DNA of 64,000 nucleotides from assembly GCF_016595155.1 (NCBI RefSeq), contig NZ_JAENGP010000004.1, positions 124,001-188,000 of the forward strand, in the 5' to 3' direction. The notes below the pieces were generated by a model. It saw only the letters and a program-made list of their open reading frames with translations. It made no database searches and had not been told where the DNA came from. The first letter of the stretch is position 1, and each line of letters starts with the position of its first letter. The stretch is from Advenella mandrilli (lineage in GTDB: Bacteria; Pseudomonadota; Gammaproteobacteria; Burkholderiales; Burkholderiaceae_B). The translations under genes and the position numbers were made by a program. Positions 116 to 13,227 of this stretch are shown piece by piece.

Positions 116-775
116 ATGAGCACAATTCACGAACGCATTAAACGATTAAGAGAAAATTCAGGGCTTTCTATGGAGGCCCTAGCCGCCCTTTTGTCGCTAA
201 AATCATGGCAAACAATTCAGCAGTGGGAGAACGGGAAGACCGCGCCAAAAAGATCAAGAGTGGATGATGTGGCAAGAGTACTGAACACAACTTCCGAATA
301 CATTCTTTTCGGGGATGCTCAAGCGCAAACCGGCAATGAAGTAAAAGAGACACCGGCCGCGAATGAAAGTGAATTTACAAATATCCGCAGATTTGATTTG
401 CGAGCGTCTGCCGGGGAAGGCAGGCTTGTGTTTGATTATGATGCCCTTGAGCCATTCAAAATACGATCTGATTTCTTGAAAAAGAACGGTGCATCAGAAA
501 AGAACACGTTCTTTATGACCGCTAAGGGCGATAGCATGGAGCCGATCATACCGGACGGGGCTGATGTTCTAGTGGTTGAGAATGGCCATGAAATTATCAA
601 TGGCAAGGTATATGTGTTTTTCCTAAATAAAAACATATACATTAAGTCGCTTAGCAAAACTGAGGGAGGCATCGTGGCGCTTTCCTACAACCATGCTTAT
701 GATCCAATGTTTATTGGCCCAAAGGATAGCTTCAAGATTATCGGCCGCGTGATTATGTGTAGCTTTGTGCTTTAA
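116..775 (+). CDS. CI-type phage repressor (XRE HTH + S24 peptidase)
   Basis: This 219-residue lysogenic repressor should hold the lytic promoters off and be inactivated by RecA-stimulated self-cleavage. The N-terminal XRE helix-turn-helix spans about residues 4-66, with the recognition region around the SWQTIQQWENGK segment. A linker is followed by the LexA-like S24 domain. The probable cleavage bond is Ala99-Gly100, the catalytic serine is Ser140 in GDSMEP, and the general-base lysine is Lys177 in IYIKSL. All the parts needed for SOS induction are therefore present. The start follows directly on the -10 box without a Shine-Dalgarno, suggesting a leaderless message. The lipoprotein genes downstream lie on the same strand and are probably co-transcribed from the lysogen. 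Confidence 0.93.
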   Translation: MSTIHERIKRLRENSGLSMEALAALLSLKSWQTIQQWENGKTAPKRSRVDDVARVLNTTSEYILFGDAQAQTGNEVKETPAANESEFTNIRRFDLRASAGEGRLVFDYDALEPFKIRSDFLKKNGASEKNTFFMTAKGDSMEPIIPDGADVLVVENGHEIINGKVYVFFLNKNIYIKSLSKTEGGIVALSYNHAYDPMFIGPKDSFKIIGRVIMCSFVL

Positions 776-3655: not shown

Positions 3656-3888
3656 ACGTTACTAGCCATCCCATCCGTCACTTACTCTCATAACCATCTC
3701 CTTTTCTAACAAAAAACATATAATCCAACAAAACAACCGGCGACAAAAAAAGCCTTCCTATGACAAGGAAAGCCCGGTTACCGCCACTGTTTTATTAAAG
3801 ATCGACCCTGATAATATAACACATACATAAGTATAAGTCCCGTTAATGTTGTTGATTCCTATCTTCCCCCTCTCGCGATGCGGTTTAT

Positions 3889-4095
3889 TCAATTCAACCT
3901 CCGCAAAAATCCCAGGGCATCCACAAGCAGCTGCCTAAATCGCTCATCGAGCGCGCCCTCCTCTTCTTGATTCATCCAGGCCACAAATTCATCAAAAGTC
4001 AAAACGTCCAGCCGGATCATTTCATTTTCGGTGATAAGGACAAAACCGCTGTCGTGTAAAAGATTGCCGTCCGGCAGTAATGTAAAAGTATTCAT
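3889..4095 (-). CDS. Small hypothetical protein
   Basis: This 68-residue acidic protein begins MNTFTLLPDGNLLHDSGF and ends in a helical, Leu/Arg-rich tail. I recognise no family. The 233 bases between it and the DUF4760 gene hold only a weak hairpin and no other frame I would support. No good ribosome binding site is visible. Its placement between the cargo block and the early operator, on the minus strand, would fit a small regulator or another lysogen-expressed gene, but this is a guess. Confidence 0.45.
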   Translation of the reverse strand: MNTFTLLPDGNLLHDSGFVLITENEMIRLDVLTFDEFVAWMNQEEEGALDERFRQLLVDALGFLRRLN

Positions 4096-4221
4096 GACCG
4101 AATATTAAGCCGGCGGCTGGCCTGAGCCGGGCCAAAGTGGGCAATTTTAGCCATTGTTGCAATTCACCCCAATCAACACAACCATCAAATTTACATTTTG
4201 TTTCTATTTCACTATGCTTTA

Positions 4222-4263
4222 TTGCTAGTTTTTCTTGCATACTAGTTTTTCTAGTGGTAATAT
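4222..4263 (+). promoter_or_regulatory. pL-like early promoter with CI operators
   Basis: Seen: a good sigma-70 promoter, TTGCAT (4235-4240), an exact 17-base spacer, and TAATAT (4258-4263). Two repressor-type sites overlap it. TGCTAGTTTTTCTTGCA (4223-4239) covers the -35 box. TACTAGTTTTTCTAG (4240-4254) fills the spacer and is identical to bases 46-60 beside cI. Transcription should start near 4270 and run right into the structured RNA region and recombination genes. Repression by CI is inferred from the shared sites. Confidence 0.75.
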
Positions 4264-4302
4264 TCAACTCATGCACTCAACGGAGCGCACGCTTCAAACG
4301 AA

Positions 4303-4314
4303 GCTTCTTTAACA
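4303..4314 (+). promoter_or_regulatory. boxA-like antitermination motif
   Basis: The sequence GCTTCTTTAACA contains TCTTTAACA, which matches the core of the bacterial rRNA/phage boxA consensus (TGCTCTTTAACA). It lies about 35 bases into the predicted early transcript and directly before the long-range RNA helix. A small hairpin, GCTTC-AAAC-GAAGC (4291-4304), just precedes it, in a boxB-like order reversed relative to lambda nut. A second, weaker boxA-like string follows at 4841-4850. Function is inferred. Confidence 0.5.
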
Positions 4315-4316
4315 AC

Positions 4317-4834
4317 TGAACTTAGGCGAGAGGCCATAACGAAAAAAGGCAAGGTGTATTAGCACCCTGCCCTTGGATTCGCAGCCAGCCCCTTTCGAGG
4401 CTGGGGCACTTCTAGCTGACGAAAAGCATGAACAAGCCAGCCAATAGCTTTATGGCCTGTTTGTAGCTCAACGTCATCTTGATTGTCAGTTCTATCATGG
4501 CAAAAAGCCCCGAAAGAAGTTGACAGGCCTGCCAACAGTTAAGGGTTGGCATTTATATAGCGCCGTGCCTGGCGCTTTGCGAATCAGTACCCGGGTACTT
4601 TTCCGCACTCATCCAACCCTCGGCAAGATGAGTCGGCTAACCCCAAATCTCAGAATCTTTTGTCTTGCTAAGCGTACCGGGTAAGTGCATCAGCACCATC
4701 CGAGGGGCTATCCAACCCCTGGCTTGCAAGAGATTTAAGAAATGGTTTTCACCTTCAGCGGTTTACTAGGCCGCAACCGGAGTTAGTGGATCCGGCAAGG
4801 TGATTATAGCTGAATGGCCTCTCCCCTAAGTTTG
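4317..4834 (+). ncRNA. Large structured non-coding RNA closed by an 18-pair helix
   Basis: Bases 4319-4337 pair with 4814-4832 in 18 Watson-Crick pairs with one C-C mismatch, plus two outer G-U pairs (4317-4834, 4318-4833). About 476 bases lie between the arms and no credible gene fits. Inside are many local hairpins: GGCA/GGTG..CACC/TGCC (4348-4371), CCAGCC..GGCTGG (about 4385-4404), AACAAGCCA..TGGCCTGTT (about 4431-4461), GCCAAC..GTTGGC (about 4531-4550), AGCGCC..GGCGCT (about 4559-4576), ACTCATC..GATGAGT (about 4606-4632), GTGC..GCAC (about 4686-4696) and CCGGA..TCCGG. ACCCGG near 4590 could pair with CCGGGT near 4677. Size, prophage setting and ornate folding recall the ROOL and GOLLD classes, but I cannot confirm membership. 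Confidence 0.72.
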
Positions 4835-4835
4835 G

Positions 4836-5086
4836 TTTGATCTTTAAAAAACTGGAATCGATAAACACGGAAATGATGCCGATCACGGCATGGCTATCCG
4901 CAGGACGAAACGCTTTACTCCTGAGTGAAAGATCAAGGCCCTTCAGCGCTGGATATGAGTCAGGGAGACTTAGCGAAAGCCCGCGAAATGCGAGAGTCCA
5001 GATGTTGATTGTATTGCCATCCTTTTACCGGAGCCGACGAGGGAACAGCCGGTAACTGGGTGGCAGGCATTCTAACGAGTGCCATC
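4836..5086 (+). ncRNA. Second structured RNA domain after the large RNA
   Basis: TTGATCTTT (4837-4845) is perfectly complementary to AAAGATCAA (4928-4936). Inside this helix is a perfect six-pair hairpin, ATGCCG-ATCA-CGGCAT (4876-4891), and an AGGA..TCCT pairing. Beyond it are ACCGG..CCGGT (about 5028-5054) and a seven-pair hairpin with a four-base loop at about 5066-5083. A frame of 72 codons crosses the region but has no ribosome binding site or protein-like composition. It may be a further domain of the upstream RNA rather than a separate molecule. Confidence 0.5.
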
Positions 5087-5185
5087 TATTGAGCAGGTTC
5101 CGCCGGGAGTTATTCACCCGGCACCAATTAACCAATTGCACAAAAAATAATTGAAAAACGAATTAAAACGGGAGCCTGCTCAATA
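5087..5185 (+). ncRNA. 15-pair stem-loop leader upstream of a small phage gene
   Basis: Bases 5087-5101 pair with 5171-5185 over 15 consecutive positions, including one G-U. The loop carries an inner hairpin, GCCGGG..CCCGGC (about 5103-5123), and an A/T-rich stretch. The 3' arm ends 27 bases before the ATG of the next gene, leaving its AAAGGAA ribosome binding site free. It could stabilise the message, act as a processing site, or be the third domain of the structured RNA. Confidence 0.55.
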
Positions 5186-5212
5186 AATACCAACCACCAA
5201 CAAAGGAAATTT

Positions 5213-5407
5213 ATGCAACCTCACCAACAAAGAGTAGTTGAAGAAAAATCGGAACTGGACGAGCGCCGCACAAAGCTTGGCGAATTCAAAAATACAGATC
5301 TTTTTGCCTCCCTTCCTTGGCAGGAGCAGGAGCGATTGAATACGCAGGCGCACATTATGACGATGTATAGCGCAATTTTGGGTGAGCGGATTACTCAGTT
5401 TAAATAA
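5213..5407 (+). CDS. Small conserved phage protein (crAss001_48-related type)
   Basis: This 64-residue, highly helical and charged protein has an excellent AAAGGAA ribosome binding site. The pattern QQRVVEEKSELDERRTKLGEF, then an LPWQEQERL segment, then a closing YSAILGERI helix matches a family of small phage proteins named as related to crAss001_48. These are common in early operons of temperate phages; their function is unknown. The gene stands between structured non-coding stretches, so it is a short coding island in an otherwise RNA-like leader. Confidence 0.8.
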   Translation: MQPHQQRVVEEKSELDERRTKLGEFKNTDLFASLPWQEQERLNTQAHIMTMYSAILGERITQFK

Positions 5408-5634
5408 ACAGCCCAACCCCGCATAGGGTAAAGACCGGTTCGCAACGGTGGGCAAATAGCGAGAACGGTAGCGGATAGTGATCTGCATTAAAGCGCCAGA
5501 GCTGATTTCATAACTGACTCCTTGCGGTACGGTTTTGCTGGTTTTCCGTGATAAACCAGCCACGTTACTCCTGTAATGAGTATGACGGGCGGCTGAAGAC
5601 ATGAGCCGATGACCACCCCGGGAAAGTAGCGGGG
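5408..5634 (+). ncRNA. Third structured non-coding stretch
   Basis: No supported gene lies between the stop at 5407 and 5709. Seen helices: GCCCA..TGGGC around 5411-5453 enclosing ACCG..CGGT; a perfect eight-pair hairpin GCTGGTTT..AAACCAGC (5537-5560, loop of eight); ACTC..GAGT (about 5566-5580) flanked by CGT..ACG; CGGCT..AGCCG (about 5591-5607); and CCCCG..CGGGG (about 5616-5634). The density of hairpins resembles the RNA at 4317-4834 more than spacer DNA. Its role is unknown. Confidence 0.5.
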
Positions 5635-5713
5635 GCCATCAAGAATCCACTCGGGCAGCAGCGGAAGCCAAGGCCGAAGGGGAGCGTAAGTCCGGGAGTG
5701 GATTCTTGATGGC
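5635..5713 (+). promoter_or_regulatory. 17-bp perfect hairpin covering a start codon
   Basis: Bases 5635-5651 and 5697-5713 form a perfect 17-base inverted repeat around a 45-base purine-rich loop. The 3' arm contains the ATG at 5709, and the GGGAG Shine-Dalgarno (5694-5698) lies at its edge. When folded, ribosome access to the next small gene should be blocked. This is the layout of a translational switch or attenuator: an alternative fold, an antisense partner, a protein or a ligand in the loop would release the start. Confidence 0.6.
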
Positions 5714-5900
5714 TTTAATCGCGGCTTATATGGCTGGATGGCAGTTAGCCGCCAAACTAGTTGGCATACATGCGAAAGCAGAGGATCTCCTTCCAGCAGC
5801 CATCAACCTATTTTTTCAGCACAACGACTGTCAGTATGAAGTCCGTGAAAAGTCCCGTAAATGTGCGATACCGGGATGCTCATGCGTACACGGGCATTAG
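5709..5900 (+). CDS. Small phage protein with Cys-rich tail
   Basis: This 63-residue protein opens with a hydrophobic helix (MALIAAYMAGWQLAAKLVG) and ends in a Cys/His cluster (CAIPGCSCVHGH) that could bind a metal. I recognise no family. The ATG lies within the 3' arm of a 17-bp hairpin, with a GGGAG Shine-Dalgarno ten bases upstream. A TTG one codon before it is a less likely start. It is on the strand of the early operon, with RNA-like sequence on both sides. Confidence 0.5.
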   Translation: MALIAAYMAGWQLAAKLVGIHAKAEDLLPAAINLFFQHNDCQYEVREKSRKCAIPGCSCVHGH

Positions 5901-6263
5901 TTAGCGAGCCGGTTTACCGGAGATGCAAAAGCAGTGCGTAAAGCCCCTAACCTGTGCCGGGCAAGAGCGCAGGGCCATCACAAGAGCGGCGGCGTGGAAA
6001 GTGGACACGCAGGGTAGGTAGCCGCGGTCCCGTACCGACCACGCGCGACTGTCGAGTGGGTACAGCTGGAGTAACGCCCGGCCACCATCAACCAATCAAA
6101 CAATCCAAACTCCAACCCAGCAAACGCTGGACTCATGGTAGCCGACGGCTTGGACAGGCCACACCTTGGCGCGATCTGGACGCCCGGCGAAAGTCAGAGA
6201 ACGGCACGGATATTGATCCGCACGGCCAGCCAGTGGCCCCACTCCTCACCCACGGAGAAATCA
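5901..6263 (+). other. Structured non-coding interval in the early operon
   Basis: This 363-base interval has several overlapping frames, but none has a ribosome binding site and protein-like sequence. It shows pairing: GCCGGGC (5956-5962) with GCCCGGC (6076-6082); CCGG-TTTA-CCGG near 5910; CCAGC-AAAC-GCTGG near 6117-6130; CGGAT-ATTG-ATCCG near 6208-6222; GTACC..GGTAC around 6031-6064. GTTAG near 5900 could pair with CTAAC near 5948. It appears to continue the series of RNA elements, ending at the GGAG ribosome binding site of the next gene. Confidence 0.4.
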
Positions 6264-6476
6264 ATGAAAAACCCCTTCCCCGGCCTCGCGGCACATCTGC
6301 GAAGCCACACGACACGCACGCCCAAACACAAACCAAAGCCAGCCCAGCCACGCTGCGAAGATTGCGACCACTGCAAGACCGTGCGCGATCCTTACGCCAC
6401 CGGTGACTGGTGGTACGCGGTGCTGGATTGCACAACAACCCCCTGCCCGTTCGGCAAAACTGAAATGGATGATTGA
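6264..6476 (+). CDS. Small Cys-rich phage protein
   Basis: This 70-residue protein is taken from the ATG at 6264, which has a GGAG ribosome binding site; the frame is open further upstream, but that part reads as non-protein. The N-terminal half is basic and Pro-rich. The C-terminal half has CEDCDHC followed by two further cysteines (CTTTPC) and the WWYAVLDC string, a probable small zinc-binding fold. Similar Cys-rich mini-proteins occur in phage early operons; the function is unknown. Confidence 0.62.
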   Translation: MKNPFPGLAAHLRSHTTRTPKHKPKPAQPRCEDCDHCKTVRDPYATGDWWYAVLDCTTTPCPFGKTEMDD

Positions 6477-6477
6477 T

Positions 6478-6621
6478 ATGAATGCATACATCGTAAATAA
6501 AGAATTTATTACGTTCGCGGTTGACCAAGCTCACGCGGCTGATAACTACAAAAAAGCTCATGGTGAGTTTGTTTTTGGATATGTATCAGTGAGTCCATGG
6601 AGGCCGCATGGATCCGTATAA
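6478..6621 (+). CDS. Small hypothetical phage protein
   Basis: This 47-residue protein starts at an ATG one base after the stop of the previous gene, suggesting translational coupling; no strong Shine-Dalgarno of its own is seen. It is mixed helix/strand (MNAYIVNKEFITFAVDQAH) with no recognised family. Its last 14 bases overlap the next small gene. The coding status is moderately supported by the tight packing. Confidence 0.45.
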   Translation: MNAYIVNKEFITFAVDQAHAADNYKKAHGEFVFGYVSVSPWRPHGSV

Positions 6622-11631: not shown

Positions 11632-12284
11632 TGAAGCAAGACGATATTGATTATCTGGCCAAGCACTACTCAACAATGTCAGCGCCTGATATCGCCAAAG
11701 CGCTAAATTGCTCCCTTTCAGCAGTCTATTATCGCGCCGGCAAGATGGGCCTGAAAAAAGACAAGGCGTTTTTAAGCGAGTGCGGCAAAAAAGTCAGTGC
11801 GCATGGCGCCGGCACCCAGTTTAAAAAGGGCCAAACACCCTGGAATAAAGGCACGGGTTGGTCGGCAGGTGGCAGAAGTATTGAAACACGCTTCAAGAAA
11901 GGCGAGATGTCCGGTGCGGCCCAGCGAAACTATGTGCCAATCGGGTCTTTTCGAATCACTAGGGATGGGGCTCTTGAGCAAAAGACGACCGACACCCCAG
12001 ATTTGTACCCTGCCAGGCGGTGGCGCCCGGTTGCTCACCTTGTGTGGGAGCGAGAGCGCGGACCAATACCCGGTGATCATGTCGTCAGGTTCATGCCTGG
12101 GATGCACACCAACAAGATCGAGGAAATCACCATTGACCGATTGGAGTGCATCAGCCGAGCCGAAAATATGAGGCGCAACACTATACACAGGTACCCGCTT
12201 GAGGTGAAAAACGCTATTCGAGCAGTCAAAAAATTAACGAAAGGAATAAGCGAACATGAGCAAAACAATAACCGATCTGCGTGA
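11631..12284 (+). CDS. HNH homing-type endonuclease with N-terminal HTH
   Basis: This 217-residue protein starts at ATG 11631, overlapping the previous stop by one base. The N-terminus (DDIDYLAKHYSTMSAPDIAKAL) is a small helix-turn-helix, followed by basic, Gly-rich repeats (GTQFKKGQTPWNKG, ETRFKKGEMSG) typical of NUMOD-like DNA-contact motifs. The C-terminal half holds the HNH core (HLVWERERGPIPGDHVVRF, then a bipartite end around ECISRAENMRRNTIHRY). These are usually selfish free-standing endonucleases in phage genomes. Its TGATG junction and overlap with the next gene show it is well settled in the operon. Confidence 0.85.
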   Translation: MKQDDIDYLAKHYSTMSAPDIAKALNCSLSAVYYRAGKMGLKKDKAFLSECGKKVSAHGAGTQFKKGQTPWNKGTGWSAGGRSIETRFKKGEMSGAAQRNYVPIGSFRITRDGALEQKTTDTPDLYPARRWRPVAHLVWERERGPIPGDHVVRFMPGMHTNKIEEITIDRLECISRAENMRRNTIHRYPLEVKNAIRAVKKLTKGISEHEQNNNRSA

Positions 12285-12537
12285 ATCGCTCTTTGATGCA
12301 ATGGATCTTTTGAAAGCCGGAAAGATTACTGTGCAGGATGCAAAAGCCATTGCCGATCTTGGCCAGGTGCTGGTGAATACAGCCAAGATTGAGGCTGATT
12401 ATGTGGCCAGGACAGGCGCTCGCGATTCTGGGTTTATTGTGCATAACGGAAAGCCGGCCATATCTGGATTAATCAGCGAAGAAACAAAAGACCTGCCGGA
12501 TGGTGTTGTGCGCAGAACCGTACATAAATTGTTGTGA
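12256..12537 (+). CDS. Hypothetical phage protein
   Basis: This 93-residue protein overlaps the HNH gene by 29 bases and has an AAGGA ribosome binding site. The helical start (ITDLRESLFDAMDLLKAGKI) and a second helix about residues 25-50 look like a small regulator or subunit of a kind frequent in phage early regions. I cannot assign a function. Confidence 0.65.
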   Translation: MSKTITDLRESLFDAMDLLKAGKITVQDAKAIADLGQVLVNTAKIEADYVARTGARDSGFIVHNGKPAISGLISEETKDLPDGVVRRTVHKLL

Positions 12538-12601
12538 TTTTGGATAACTGGCAGTATGCCGATTTTTGGCAGAAATATGCCGGAAGTTTTTGAGGATAAA
12601 T

Positions 12602-13003
12602 ATGAAAAAAACACTTTTAATAATGCTTGCCAGCGTAGCTCTGGCCGGATGCGATACGGACTCAAATATTGCCTCTCGGAATTTAAGTAAAGCCGCTGAT
12701 ATGTTTGAAATCAATCGCCGAATCGTGTTCTACAACGGCATCACAGATCAATACATTTTGACGATTGAGGGCAAATGTTCGATTGACACTAATGCATCAA
12801 ACACGTCATTTCATGTCACCTGCAAGACCGGGCCAAACGAGTACAAGAAGCATTTTCTTGGGTTATCGGACAACGTGACTTACTTTGCCGAGCAGCTGGA
12901 CGGCGTGGATGTCAGTACATACCATTACCGAGTTGTATTCAAACCGCAGGTTATTGTGCCGGATGTTGATTTTAGGGGTAGCACGAAGGGGCTTTTGAAA
13001 TGA
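12602..13003 (+). CDS. Phage beta-sandwich lipoprotein
   Basis: This 133-residue lipoprotein has a signal peptide (KKTLLIMLASVALAGC) with a lipobox at LAGC (Cys18). The mature part, from SNIASRNLSKAADMFEINRR through IVFYNGITDQYILTIEG to YHYRVVFKPQVIVPDVD, matches a family of small beta-sandwich lipoproteins common in early operons of proteobacterial temperate phages. Their function is unknown; a superinfection role is often proposed. The start at 12602 is chosen for its GAGG ribosome binding site and signal peptide. It couples to the next gene by ATGA. Confidence 0.8.
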   Translation: MKKTLLIMLASVALAGCDTDSNIASRNLSKAADMFEINRRIVFYNGITDQYILTIEGKCSIDTNASNTSFHVTCKTGPNEYKKHFLGLSDNVTYFAEQLDGVDVSTYHYRVVFKPQVIVPDVDFRGSTKGLLK

Positions 13004-13227
13004 ACTTTGACAAAGCCAACGAATGGCGAAAACAGAATTTCCCTCACCTAGAGGGATACGAAATTAGGGCATATACCTTTGATCTTTGTTTCTCGGCTAC
13101 ACAACGCGATGAAGATGCTGAATTCCGGCCAGCACCGCTGGGTTACATTTATGCCATTGCACGCGTCAGACTTTATGACGATACCTGGGGTGATGATGTT
13201 GTTTTATTGATGCCGGAGAATTTATGA
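13000..13227 (+). CDS. Small hypothetical phage protein
   Basis: This 75-residue protein overlaps the lipoprotein stop by ATGA. The sequence is acidic and aromatic (NEWRKQNFPHLEGYEIRAYTF), with no recognised family. It is one link in a run of six small genes, each joined by a four-base ATGA overlap, which supports real translation. Confidence 0.6.
   Translation: MNFDKANEWRKQNFPHLEGYEIRAYTFDLCFSATQRDEDAEFRPAPLGYIYAIARVRLYDDTWGDDVVLLMPENL

Follow-up and report, generated by a model that had tools for sequence, protein, structure and literature searches.

A boxA-linked long-range helix in a prophage early leader of Advenella mandrilli and the exchangeable reverse-strand genes found inside it

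Introduction

What occupies the ~500 nucleotides of a prophage early leader in Advenella mandrilli? The original prediction held that this interval forms one large structured RNA, closed by a helix between distant arms, devoid of credible genes, and possibly either a divergent member of the phage-borne ROOL and GOLLD classes or a new class made on induction. We have followed this proposal in a 64 kb stretch of the genome (contig NZ_JAENGP010000004.1), referred to here as the window, whose positions serve as coordinates throughout, and in related loci from bacterial genomes and viral contigs. The reading at which we arrive, to which we assign a probability of roughly 0.58, is that the early leader carries a scaffold resembling the leader of an rRNA operon, consisting of a boxA and a leader-trailer helix, and that this scaffold holds a slot for an accessory gene on the reverse strand. 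The individual parts are of known kinds, and a search of the open-licence PubMed Central literature found no description of boxA, helix, and refillable slot combined as a conserved, rRNA-like leader.

The Prophage Early Region

The window begins in the early region of a prophage, where a CI-like repressor is followed by the leader, an ORF matching phrog_774, and genes for an Erf-like annealing protein, an exonuclease, and a single-strand binding protein, with another recombination-associated exonuclease and an HNH endonuclease also encoded there (Table 1). The repressor assumed in the original prediction is therefore a real gene. The placement of a repressor upstream and of recombination genes downstream was examined in the window and in the viral stretch L172, which has the same order of S24 repressor, leader, RecT, and YqaJ-type exonuclease. 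A promoter-like pair does precede the leader as had been proposed, but its description as strong is unsupported, because by our own count it matches the consensus at 7 of 12 positions and it is absent from the output of the consensus scan. The stretch around this pair (4217–4279) shows 86% identity to five Bordetella avium phages by blastn; these phages have the promoter stretch in common with the window and also possess a boxA, but no such helix or insert was seen by eye in L059, the one that was read.

Table 1. Positions of features in and around the prophage early leader of the window
Position	Strand	Feature	Basis
116–775	+	CI/LexA-like phage repressor gene	phrog_4 transcriptional repressor, E 1.8e-43
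4235–4263	+	Early promoter-like pair TTGCAT-17-TAATAT, overlying repeated operator-like CTAGTTTTTCT(T/A)G	Sequence
4306–4316	+	boxA, TCTTTAACAAC	Core identical to both boxA copies in host rrn operon (leader and spacer)
4314–4337	+	5′ arm of long-range leader-trailer-like helix	Fold; covariation of homologous arms
4345–4374	−	Terminator-like hairpin and T tail, just inside 5′ arm	Consensus match only
4385–4404	−	Hairpin shortly after peptide stop codon	3 of 8 pairs changed on both sides; terminator-like in chromosomal copy L133
4412–4498	−	Conserved ORF for 28 aa hydrophobic peptide (peptide A), MIELTIKMTLSYKQAIKLLAGLFMLFVS	21 aligned copies, 0 in-frame stops
4530–4551	+	Terminator-like hairpin TGCCAAC..GTTGGCA then TTTATAT, upstream of peptide start	Scan of window, L133, and L060
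4803–4808	−	−10 element TATAAT of putative peptide-gene promoter, 9 nt inside 3′ arm	Sequence
4814–4837	+	3′ arm of long-range helix	Fold; covariation of homologous arms
4842–4850	+	Second boxA-like sequence CTTTAAAAA, past 3′ arm	Sequence
5213–5407	+	First early-operon ORF with phage-family match, function unassigned	phrog_774, E 4.1e-15

The Long-Range Helix and Its Conservation

In the minimum-energy fold of 4312–4840, bases 4314–4326 pair with 4825–4837 and bases 4328–4337 with 4814–4823, giving 23 pairs (13 + 10) around one mismatch, C4327 opposite C4824, so that the helix first described as 18 positions with one mismatch between 4319–4337 and 4814–4832 is real and longer than had been thought. 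The z-score of this fold is −7.73, a value equalled by none of 100 shuffles, and the full leader (4265–4860, z −6.35) forms the identical helix, with boxA left unpaired up to its last three bases, at which the helix starts. The minus strand of the region folds better still (z −9.58).

Relatives were sought over viral contigs with a pattern composed of boxA and the conserved arm (TCTTTRACAAN{2,10}TCAGGAGAGGG), and 18 of the 20 matching stretches possess a matching 3′ arm; the other two, L178 and L182, lack one and look like chance matches. The helix spans 387–481 nt in copies with a recognized gene. The arms co-vary, a point that the original prediction had proposed to test: among 17 distinct arm pairs, 87% of positions are paired and 31 cells are compensatory, either value being reached by none of 1000 reshuffled pairings. 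A third measure is weaker, in that 5 of 1000 shuffles attain the 10 pairs for which a compensatory change was counted, and the shuffles take no account of the relatedness of the phages. The 17 pairs derive from 20 listed leaders, from which L155 (not parsed) and the window (arm length) dropped out and in which the identical arms of L172 and L175 were merged; L033, L173, and L181 were outside the listed set. Close relatives stand among the rows (L032/L060, L172/L175, L168/L173, L176/L181), so the counts are not counts of independent events. Pairing in L033 is good in the inner part of the helix and poor in the outer.

The strong folding of the early region extends beyond the helix, since the stretch between it and the first ORF (4835–5212) has a z-score of −6.3, with neither an Rfam match nor a relative found for it, and an intergenic stretch between two small early-operon ORFs (5405–5720) has one of −3.2.

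The Parallel with the rRNA Operon Leader

What had been called a boxA-like motif is an rrn-type boxA, whose consensus core CTTTAACAA occurs in the window, in the host rrn leader, and in the host spacer. Its position relative to the helix does not depend on how the leaders were collected, as boxA precedes the 5′ arm in all eight leaders that were first found by their interior, or are the window itself, rather than by boxA. The host's own 16S leader-trailer helix (−61 kcal/mol) starts at the third base after the rrn leader boxA GCTCTTTAACAA, and a second boxA is located before the 23S rRNA; the phage helix likewise starts within a few bases of its boxA. A boxA-like sequence past the 3′ arm is found in the window and in L062, and the boxA of L061 is degenerate. 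The host spacer before the 23S rRNA (L189) also contains CCAGGGATTCAG, the very sequence with which the phage arms of L033, L169, and L171 begin.

According to the part of PMC10250234 consulted here, 30S formation in Escherichia coli depends critically on a leader-trailer helix longer than 17 bp, the contribution of boxA is 2- to 3-fold, and RNase III cleaves the leader-trailer helix. With the rRNA operon leader treated there, the phage leader shares a boxA core identical to that of the host, a long-range helix that starts within a few bases of it, a long untranslated interior, and, in two phages, a second boxA-like sequence afterwards. It differs in that the phage interior is devoid of rRNA, is exchangeable, and often carries a gene on the reverse strand, and in that a boxB hairpin appears not to be conserved in the phages: a boxB-like hairpin with a stem of at least 5 bp precedes boxA in 7 of 22 leaders against 2.4 expected, the window leader having one of 5 bp. 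Another comparison is with the nutL leader of lambda-type phages. In both, a boxA-bearing early leader has the repressor on one side and recombination genes on the other; the leader studied here differs in having no identified short boxB N-site and instead a helix that closes over as much as ~480 nt. The part of PMC11893012 consulted here treats the nut sites of lambda-like phages.

Exchangeable Contents of the Helix

The sequence between the arms varies greatly among the 18 viral stretches with a complete helix. Six hold the gene for the hydrophobic peptide found in the window, here called peptide A (L060, L145, L156, L160, L172, L175), and five that for a second hydrophobic peptide, peptide B (L169, L176, L179, L181, L183, of which L176 and L181 look identical), which has no match in Pfam or PHROGs. 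Two encode a membrane protein of ~107 aa (L171 and L180, 54% identical to each other) and one, L177, a DUF1508 protein (PF07411, E 6e-12) together with an open plus-strand ORF of 55 aa; L174 contains 256 nt of other sequence, and L168, L170, and L173 contain 93–112 nt with no recognized gene. All of the recognized genes lie on the reverse strand.

That these contents are exchanged emerges from a comparison covering nine leader pairs. The flanks of L170 and L175 are 85% (78 nt) and 83% (361 nt) identical and those of L060 and L177 are 90% (73 nt) and 85% (211 nt) identical, with no similarity in the interior in either case, while L172 and L175 are 95% identical over 422 nt of interior, L168 and L173 have their interior in common at 97%, and L060 and L176 share 50 nt of interior at 84%. 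Pentapeptide-repeat proteins are encoded just behind the leader slot in L175 (3103–3843) and ~1 kb behind it in L160 (8122–9015).

Phage morons are accessory loci expressed in lysogeny, and like them the slot genes are present, absent, or replaced among related phages and are accompanied by what, by its match to a promoter sequence, appears to be a promoter of their own; they differ in that the recognized slot genes are encoded on the reverse strand and are enclosed by a conserved RNA helix. Of the 14 leaders with peptide A or B, 13 have a −10-like element on the minus strand, located 9–16 nt inward from the right arm, and none of the four without a recognized gene has one; the element is missing in L033 and lies deeper in the cargo C/DUF1508 leaders. 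Twenty-two leaders were listed for this comparison; L155 was not parsed, which leaves 21, and the 14 with a peptide gene are among these.

The direction in which arms and interior are read was approached through wobble pairs. On the plus strand the arms have 26 G.U against 19 A.C cells, and as 13 of these 19 belong to one fixed mismatch column, the ratio elsewhere is 26 to 6, a pattern that leans toward a plus-strand RNA. For the hairpin behind the peptide ORF the plus-strand count is 2 G.U against 15 A.C, which favors the minus strand and suits a terminator on that strand. Taken across the interior as a whole, the counts do not settle the strand, being 22 against 43 in 13 copies and, in 19 copies, 40 against 62 for pairs that are predicted whichever strand is folded and 97 against 73 for all pairs, with the ORF confounding these counts; folding energy does not discriminate the strands, its z-scores being similar on both over 13 units. 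Because of the split between arms and hairpin, together with the minus-strand −10-like element, we assign the helix to the early transcript and regard the interior as a gene on the reverse strand. The consensus scan that gave the minus-strand terminator-like hairpin just inside the 5′ arm of the window gave none in L060.

The Reverse-Strand Peptide

The interval had been described as holding no credible gene, which does not stand, as its minus strand contains a small ORF conserved in 21 copies. In these copies the peptide A frame has a mean BLOSUM score of 2.38 and no stop, against scores of at most 1.28 and 16 to 75 stops in the other five frames, and codon position 2 is the least variable (0.147 against 0.350 and 0.388); a first set of 12 copies was also analyzed for coding. 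The 21 copies exclude L032, whose peptide is that of L060, and L139, a copy outside the phage leaders that has an in-frame stop in the peptide and looks decayed. The original prediction had set a conserved reading frame against a conserved pairing; both are found, the frame inside the helix on the other strand and the outer pairing around it.

Across copies the peptide is hydrophobic and 23–28 aa long, for example MFELTIKLKLSYKQLHALIALLMLFLS in L160 and MFTLAIKLELSYKQLVQMIALLLMLFFS in L133, and in L033 four codons are absent with the frame kept. Most copies have, by eye, a purine-rich stretch resembling a ribosome-binding site before the ATG, and a hairpin after the stop. No family match was obtained in Pfam, NCBIfam, PHROGs, or PADLOC. 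Of ten peptides examined from both families, eight have in common a strongly alternating polar/hydrophobic N-terminal half and all ten a hydrophobic C-terminal half (no control was run for either pattern), which suggests a membrane-active micro-peptide. The peptide is most likely membrane-active, perhaps as a type I toxin-like or an exclusion peptide. A palindrome, GCTGGCAGNNCTGCCA, with a variable center lies just upstream of the peptide start in many copies (e.g., L060:9288–9306) and could pair in two alternative ways, and alternative pairing is known from switching toxin mRNAs. At ~9150–9245 of L165, a divergent viral relative with a weak model score, the minus strand encodes MFKLTIKAVKVEINLWALAAILHVLVDRILS, which in appearance lies between peptides A and B.

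The peptide unit is not confined to the helix. It is found in three viral contigs (L151, L157, L161) with no boxA or arm beside it; in L188 (5442–8193) it lies immediately downstream of gyrB in the same direction, an arrangement that L133 and L138 resemble by eye; and in the copy L129/L186 (L186:9740) it lies ~2.4 kb from an integron integrase (12137–13117; TIGR02249, E 1.1e-143). An IS110 transposase lies between the unit and the integrase in L186. Sequences resembling attC were seen by eye near the copies L129 and L137, for which a regular-expression test gave 0–1 matches per strand against 0.1–0.4 in shuffles and thus no clear excess. Since peptide units occur without the helix and helices without the peptide, the two travel separately in both directions.

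Distribution of the Unit

A DNA search of 268 genomes of the family found L032, L033, and the locus L039/L061/L062, which is split over two contig ends, and L060 was found by a DNA pattern over viral contigs. The unit is thereby placed in Verticiella sediminum DSM 27279 and Allopusillimonas ginsengisoli KCTC 22046, both Alcaligenaceae of the Burkholderiales; the split unit (L061/L062) is that of A. ginsengisoli, and by eye a sequence resembling an insertion sequence lies at the break. A covariance model of the core of the unit (R1) matched in 19 of the 268 family genomes at E ≤0.1 (four strong and 15 weak) and, among 399 genomes of the order, in the genome of origin and three distant ones. A second model (R2) matched in 10 of 158 genomes of one other family (one weak), 1 of 12 of another, and 5 of 399 in the order (one weak), and among 369 of the class only in the genome of origin. 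Pattern scans over viral contigs together with R2 added L145, L151, L155, L156, L157, L160, L161, L172, and L175. Weak model matches were not taken as members, namely the 15 of the 19 R1 family genomes (six of them looked at), G362, G776, and L165. Among named phages and plasmids, matches to the units of the window, L032, and L160 by blastn and to two peptides by tblastn were confined to Bordetella avium phages, where they comprised the shared promoter and the stretch that follows the helix; the low-complexity filter of this search may hide hydrophobic peptides.

Comparison with Known RNA Classes

Rfam 15 gave no match in the whole window at gathering score, and when the 4227 models, which we take to include those of ROOL, GOLLD, HEARO, and raiA, were run at E ≤10 over 3700–6500, none of these four matched and the only hit was a CrcZ fragment outside the helix (minus strand 4172–4238, E 0.3). 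In six homologous loci at E ≤1 the matches were Burkholderiales-2 behind the helix and a mir-21 match far below the cut-off. Assignment to ROOL, GOLLD, HEARO, raiA, or another Rfam class was accordingly rejected. The Burkholderiales-2 RNA (RF02917) directly follows the 3′ arm and is encoded on the strand opposite to the early transcript (L032:1920–1995, L060:9573–9649), in a stretch common to nine Bordetella avium phages that in L059 comes directly after boxA.

Proposed Model

Two layers can be distinguished in the proposed scaffold, an outer one on the plus strand, in which a lambda-like prophage would have an early leader organized in the manner of an rRNA operon leader, and an inner one on the minus strand, in which the loop of the helix would serve as a slot for a reverse-strand accessory gene or moron. 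In the lysogen the early promoter would be repressed and, as the anatomy suggests, the peptide would be made from its own promoter. Upon induction the early transcript would run antisense through the slot. By analogy with rRNA antitermination, boxA would recruit the host Nus/SuhB complex and render the polymerase Rho-resistant over ~500 untranslated nucleotides that bear terminators, and the boxA-bound complex may keep the 5′ arm tethered until the 3′ arm has been transcribed. The two arms would then form the helix, which would probably be cut by RNase III, separating the antisense insert from the early mRNA, and the same anatomy leads us to infer that antisense transcription on induction also silences the peptide gene. 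A conserved closure behind a boxA in an early leader makes it plausible that, as originally predicted, an RNA is made when the early promoter fires; what stands of the earlier interpretation is a conserved, co-varying closure in a prophage early leader, and what falls is the choice of relatives.

A broader proposal, which we put forward only tentatively and regard as somewhat improbable, is that temperate phages of Burkholderiales hosts have taken over the transcription-and-folding apparatus of rRNA as a general slot, in which the polymerase complex would hold the arms and a reverse-strand gene could sit within an early operon without imposing a polar, Rho-terminated, or double-strand-RNA burden, and which would be filled mostly by a new class of strand-plus-helix micro-peptides.

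Alternative Explanations

The closest to the original prediction is a large, trans-acting structured RNA on the plus strand, of the ROOL/GOLLD kind or of a new such class. The phage leader resembles those RNAs in its length of several hundred nucleotides, prophage location, long-range closure, and elaborate and strong predicted folding, and stems of its interior show changes on both sides; but no covariance model of such a class matches it, the 64 kb window contains no tRNA, whereas ROOL and GOLLD often lie near tRNA islands in the part of PMC12286853 consulted here, its interior is not conserved across the scaffold set, being replaced by unrelated sequence while the arms stay, and the ORF conserved within it is on the opposite strand. 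We consider this explanation highly improbable. The swapping of content between the arms, their conservation in sequence as well as in pairing, which fits a role at the level of DNA, and the existence of peptide units without arms, be it in three viral contigs, beside gyrB, or close to an integron integrase, could instead mean that the arms act as inverted repeats (terminal repeats or homology arms) in cassette exchange, with RNA pairing as a by-product. This is difficult to reconcile with pairing and compensatory cells that exceed all 1000 shuffles, with the 26-to-6 preponderance of G.U over A.C on the plus strand outside the fixed column, with arms retained around no recognized gene (L168, L170, L173), and with a location behind boxA that holds in copies found by other means than the boxA pattern, and we judge it unlikely.

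Another explanation would make the helix itself an antitermination signal, put-like or nut-like as in phage HK022 or lambda, and the insert a tolerated passenger. The helix lies immediately behind boxA, its arm sequence is conserved, and the plus-strand terminator-like hairpin in the interior would need read-through; on the other hand, the HK022 put and lambda nut hairpins are short, and by eye the related leaders L059, L034, L003, and L038 have a boxA but no such helix, so that we give this explanation rather low odds, if slightly better ones than cassette exchange by the arms as DNA. Finally, the peptide gene and an antisense RNA arising inside the unit may together make up a complete type I toxin-antitoxin pair, a possibility that we take seriously while leaning against it. 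A short hydrophobic peptide ORF conserved by selection, as type I toxins have, is what was found, with a structured 5′ region and terminator-like hairpins on both strands around the ORF, and the unit is found beside gyrB and close to an integron integrase as well as in prophages; as in the prophage toxin HokW, treated in the part of PMC8621323 consulted here, a short hydrophobic peptide, a structured mRNA, and a prophage location come together. Against this, promoter scans of three copies (window, L133, L060) found no shared plus-strand promoter, no antisense antitoxin promoter and no antitoxin were found, peptide A has no family match in four libraries, and the alternating N-terminal pattern (no control run) differs from the alpha-helix as which type I toxins are described in the part of PMC8309996 consulted here.

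Significance

Helices between leader and trailer that are coupled to boxA are established in ribosome production, and a phage version whose interior changes would amount to a natural experiment in which helix closure and boxA tethering are separated from ribosome assembly. Two unnamed families of micro-peptides are introduced, one of which also occurs next to gyrB and near an integron integrase, and the combination of boxA and arm provides a search pattern for further slots. A slot inside an rRNA-leader-like scaffold would explain how reverse-strand accessory genes are carried inside the early operon of temperate phages.
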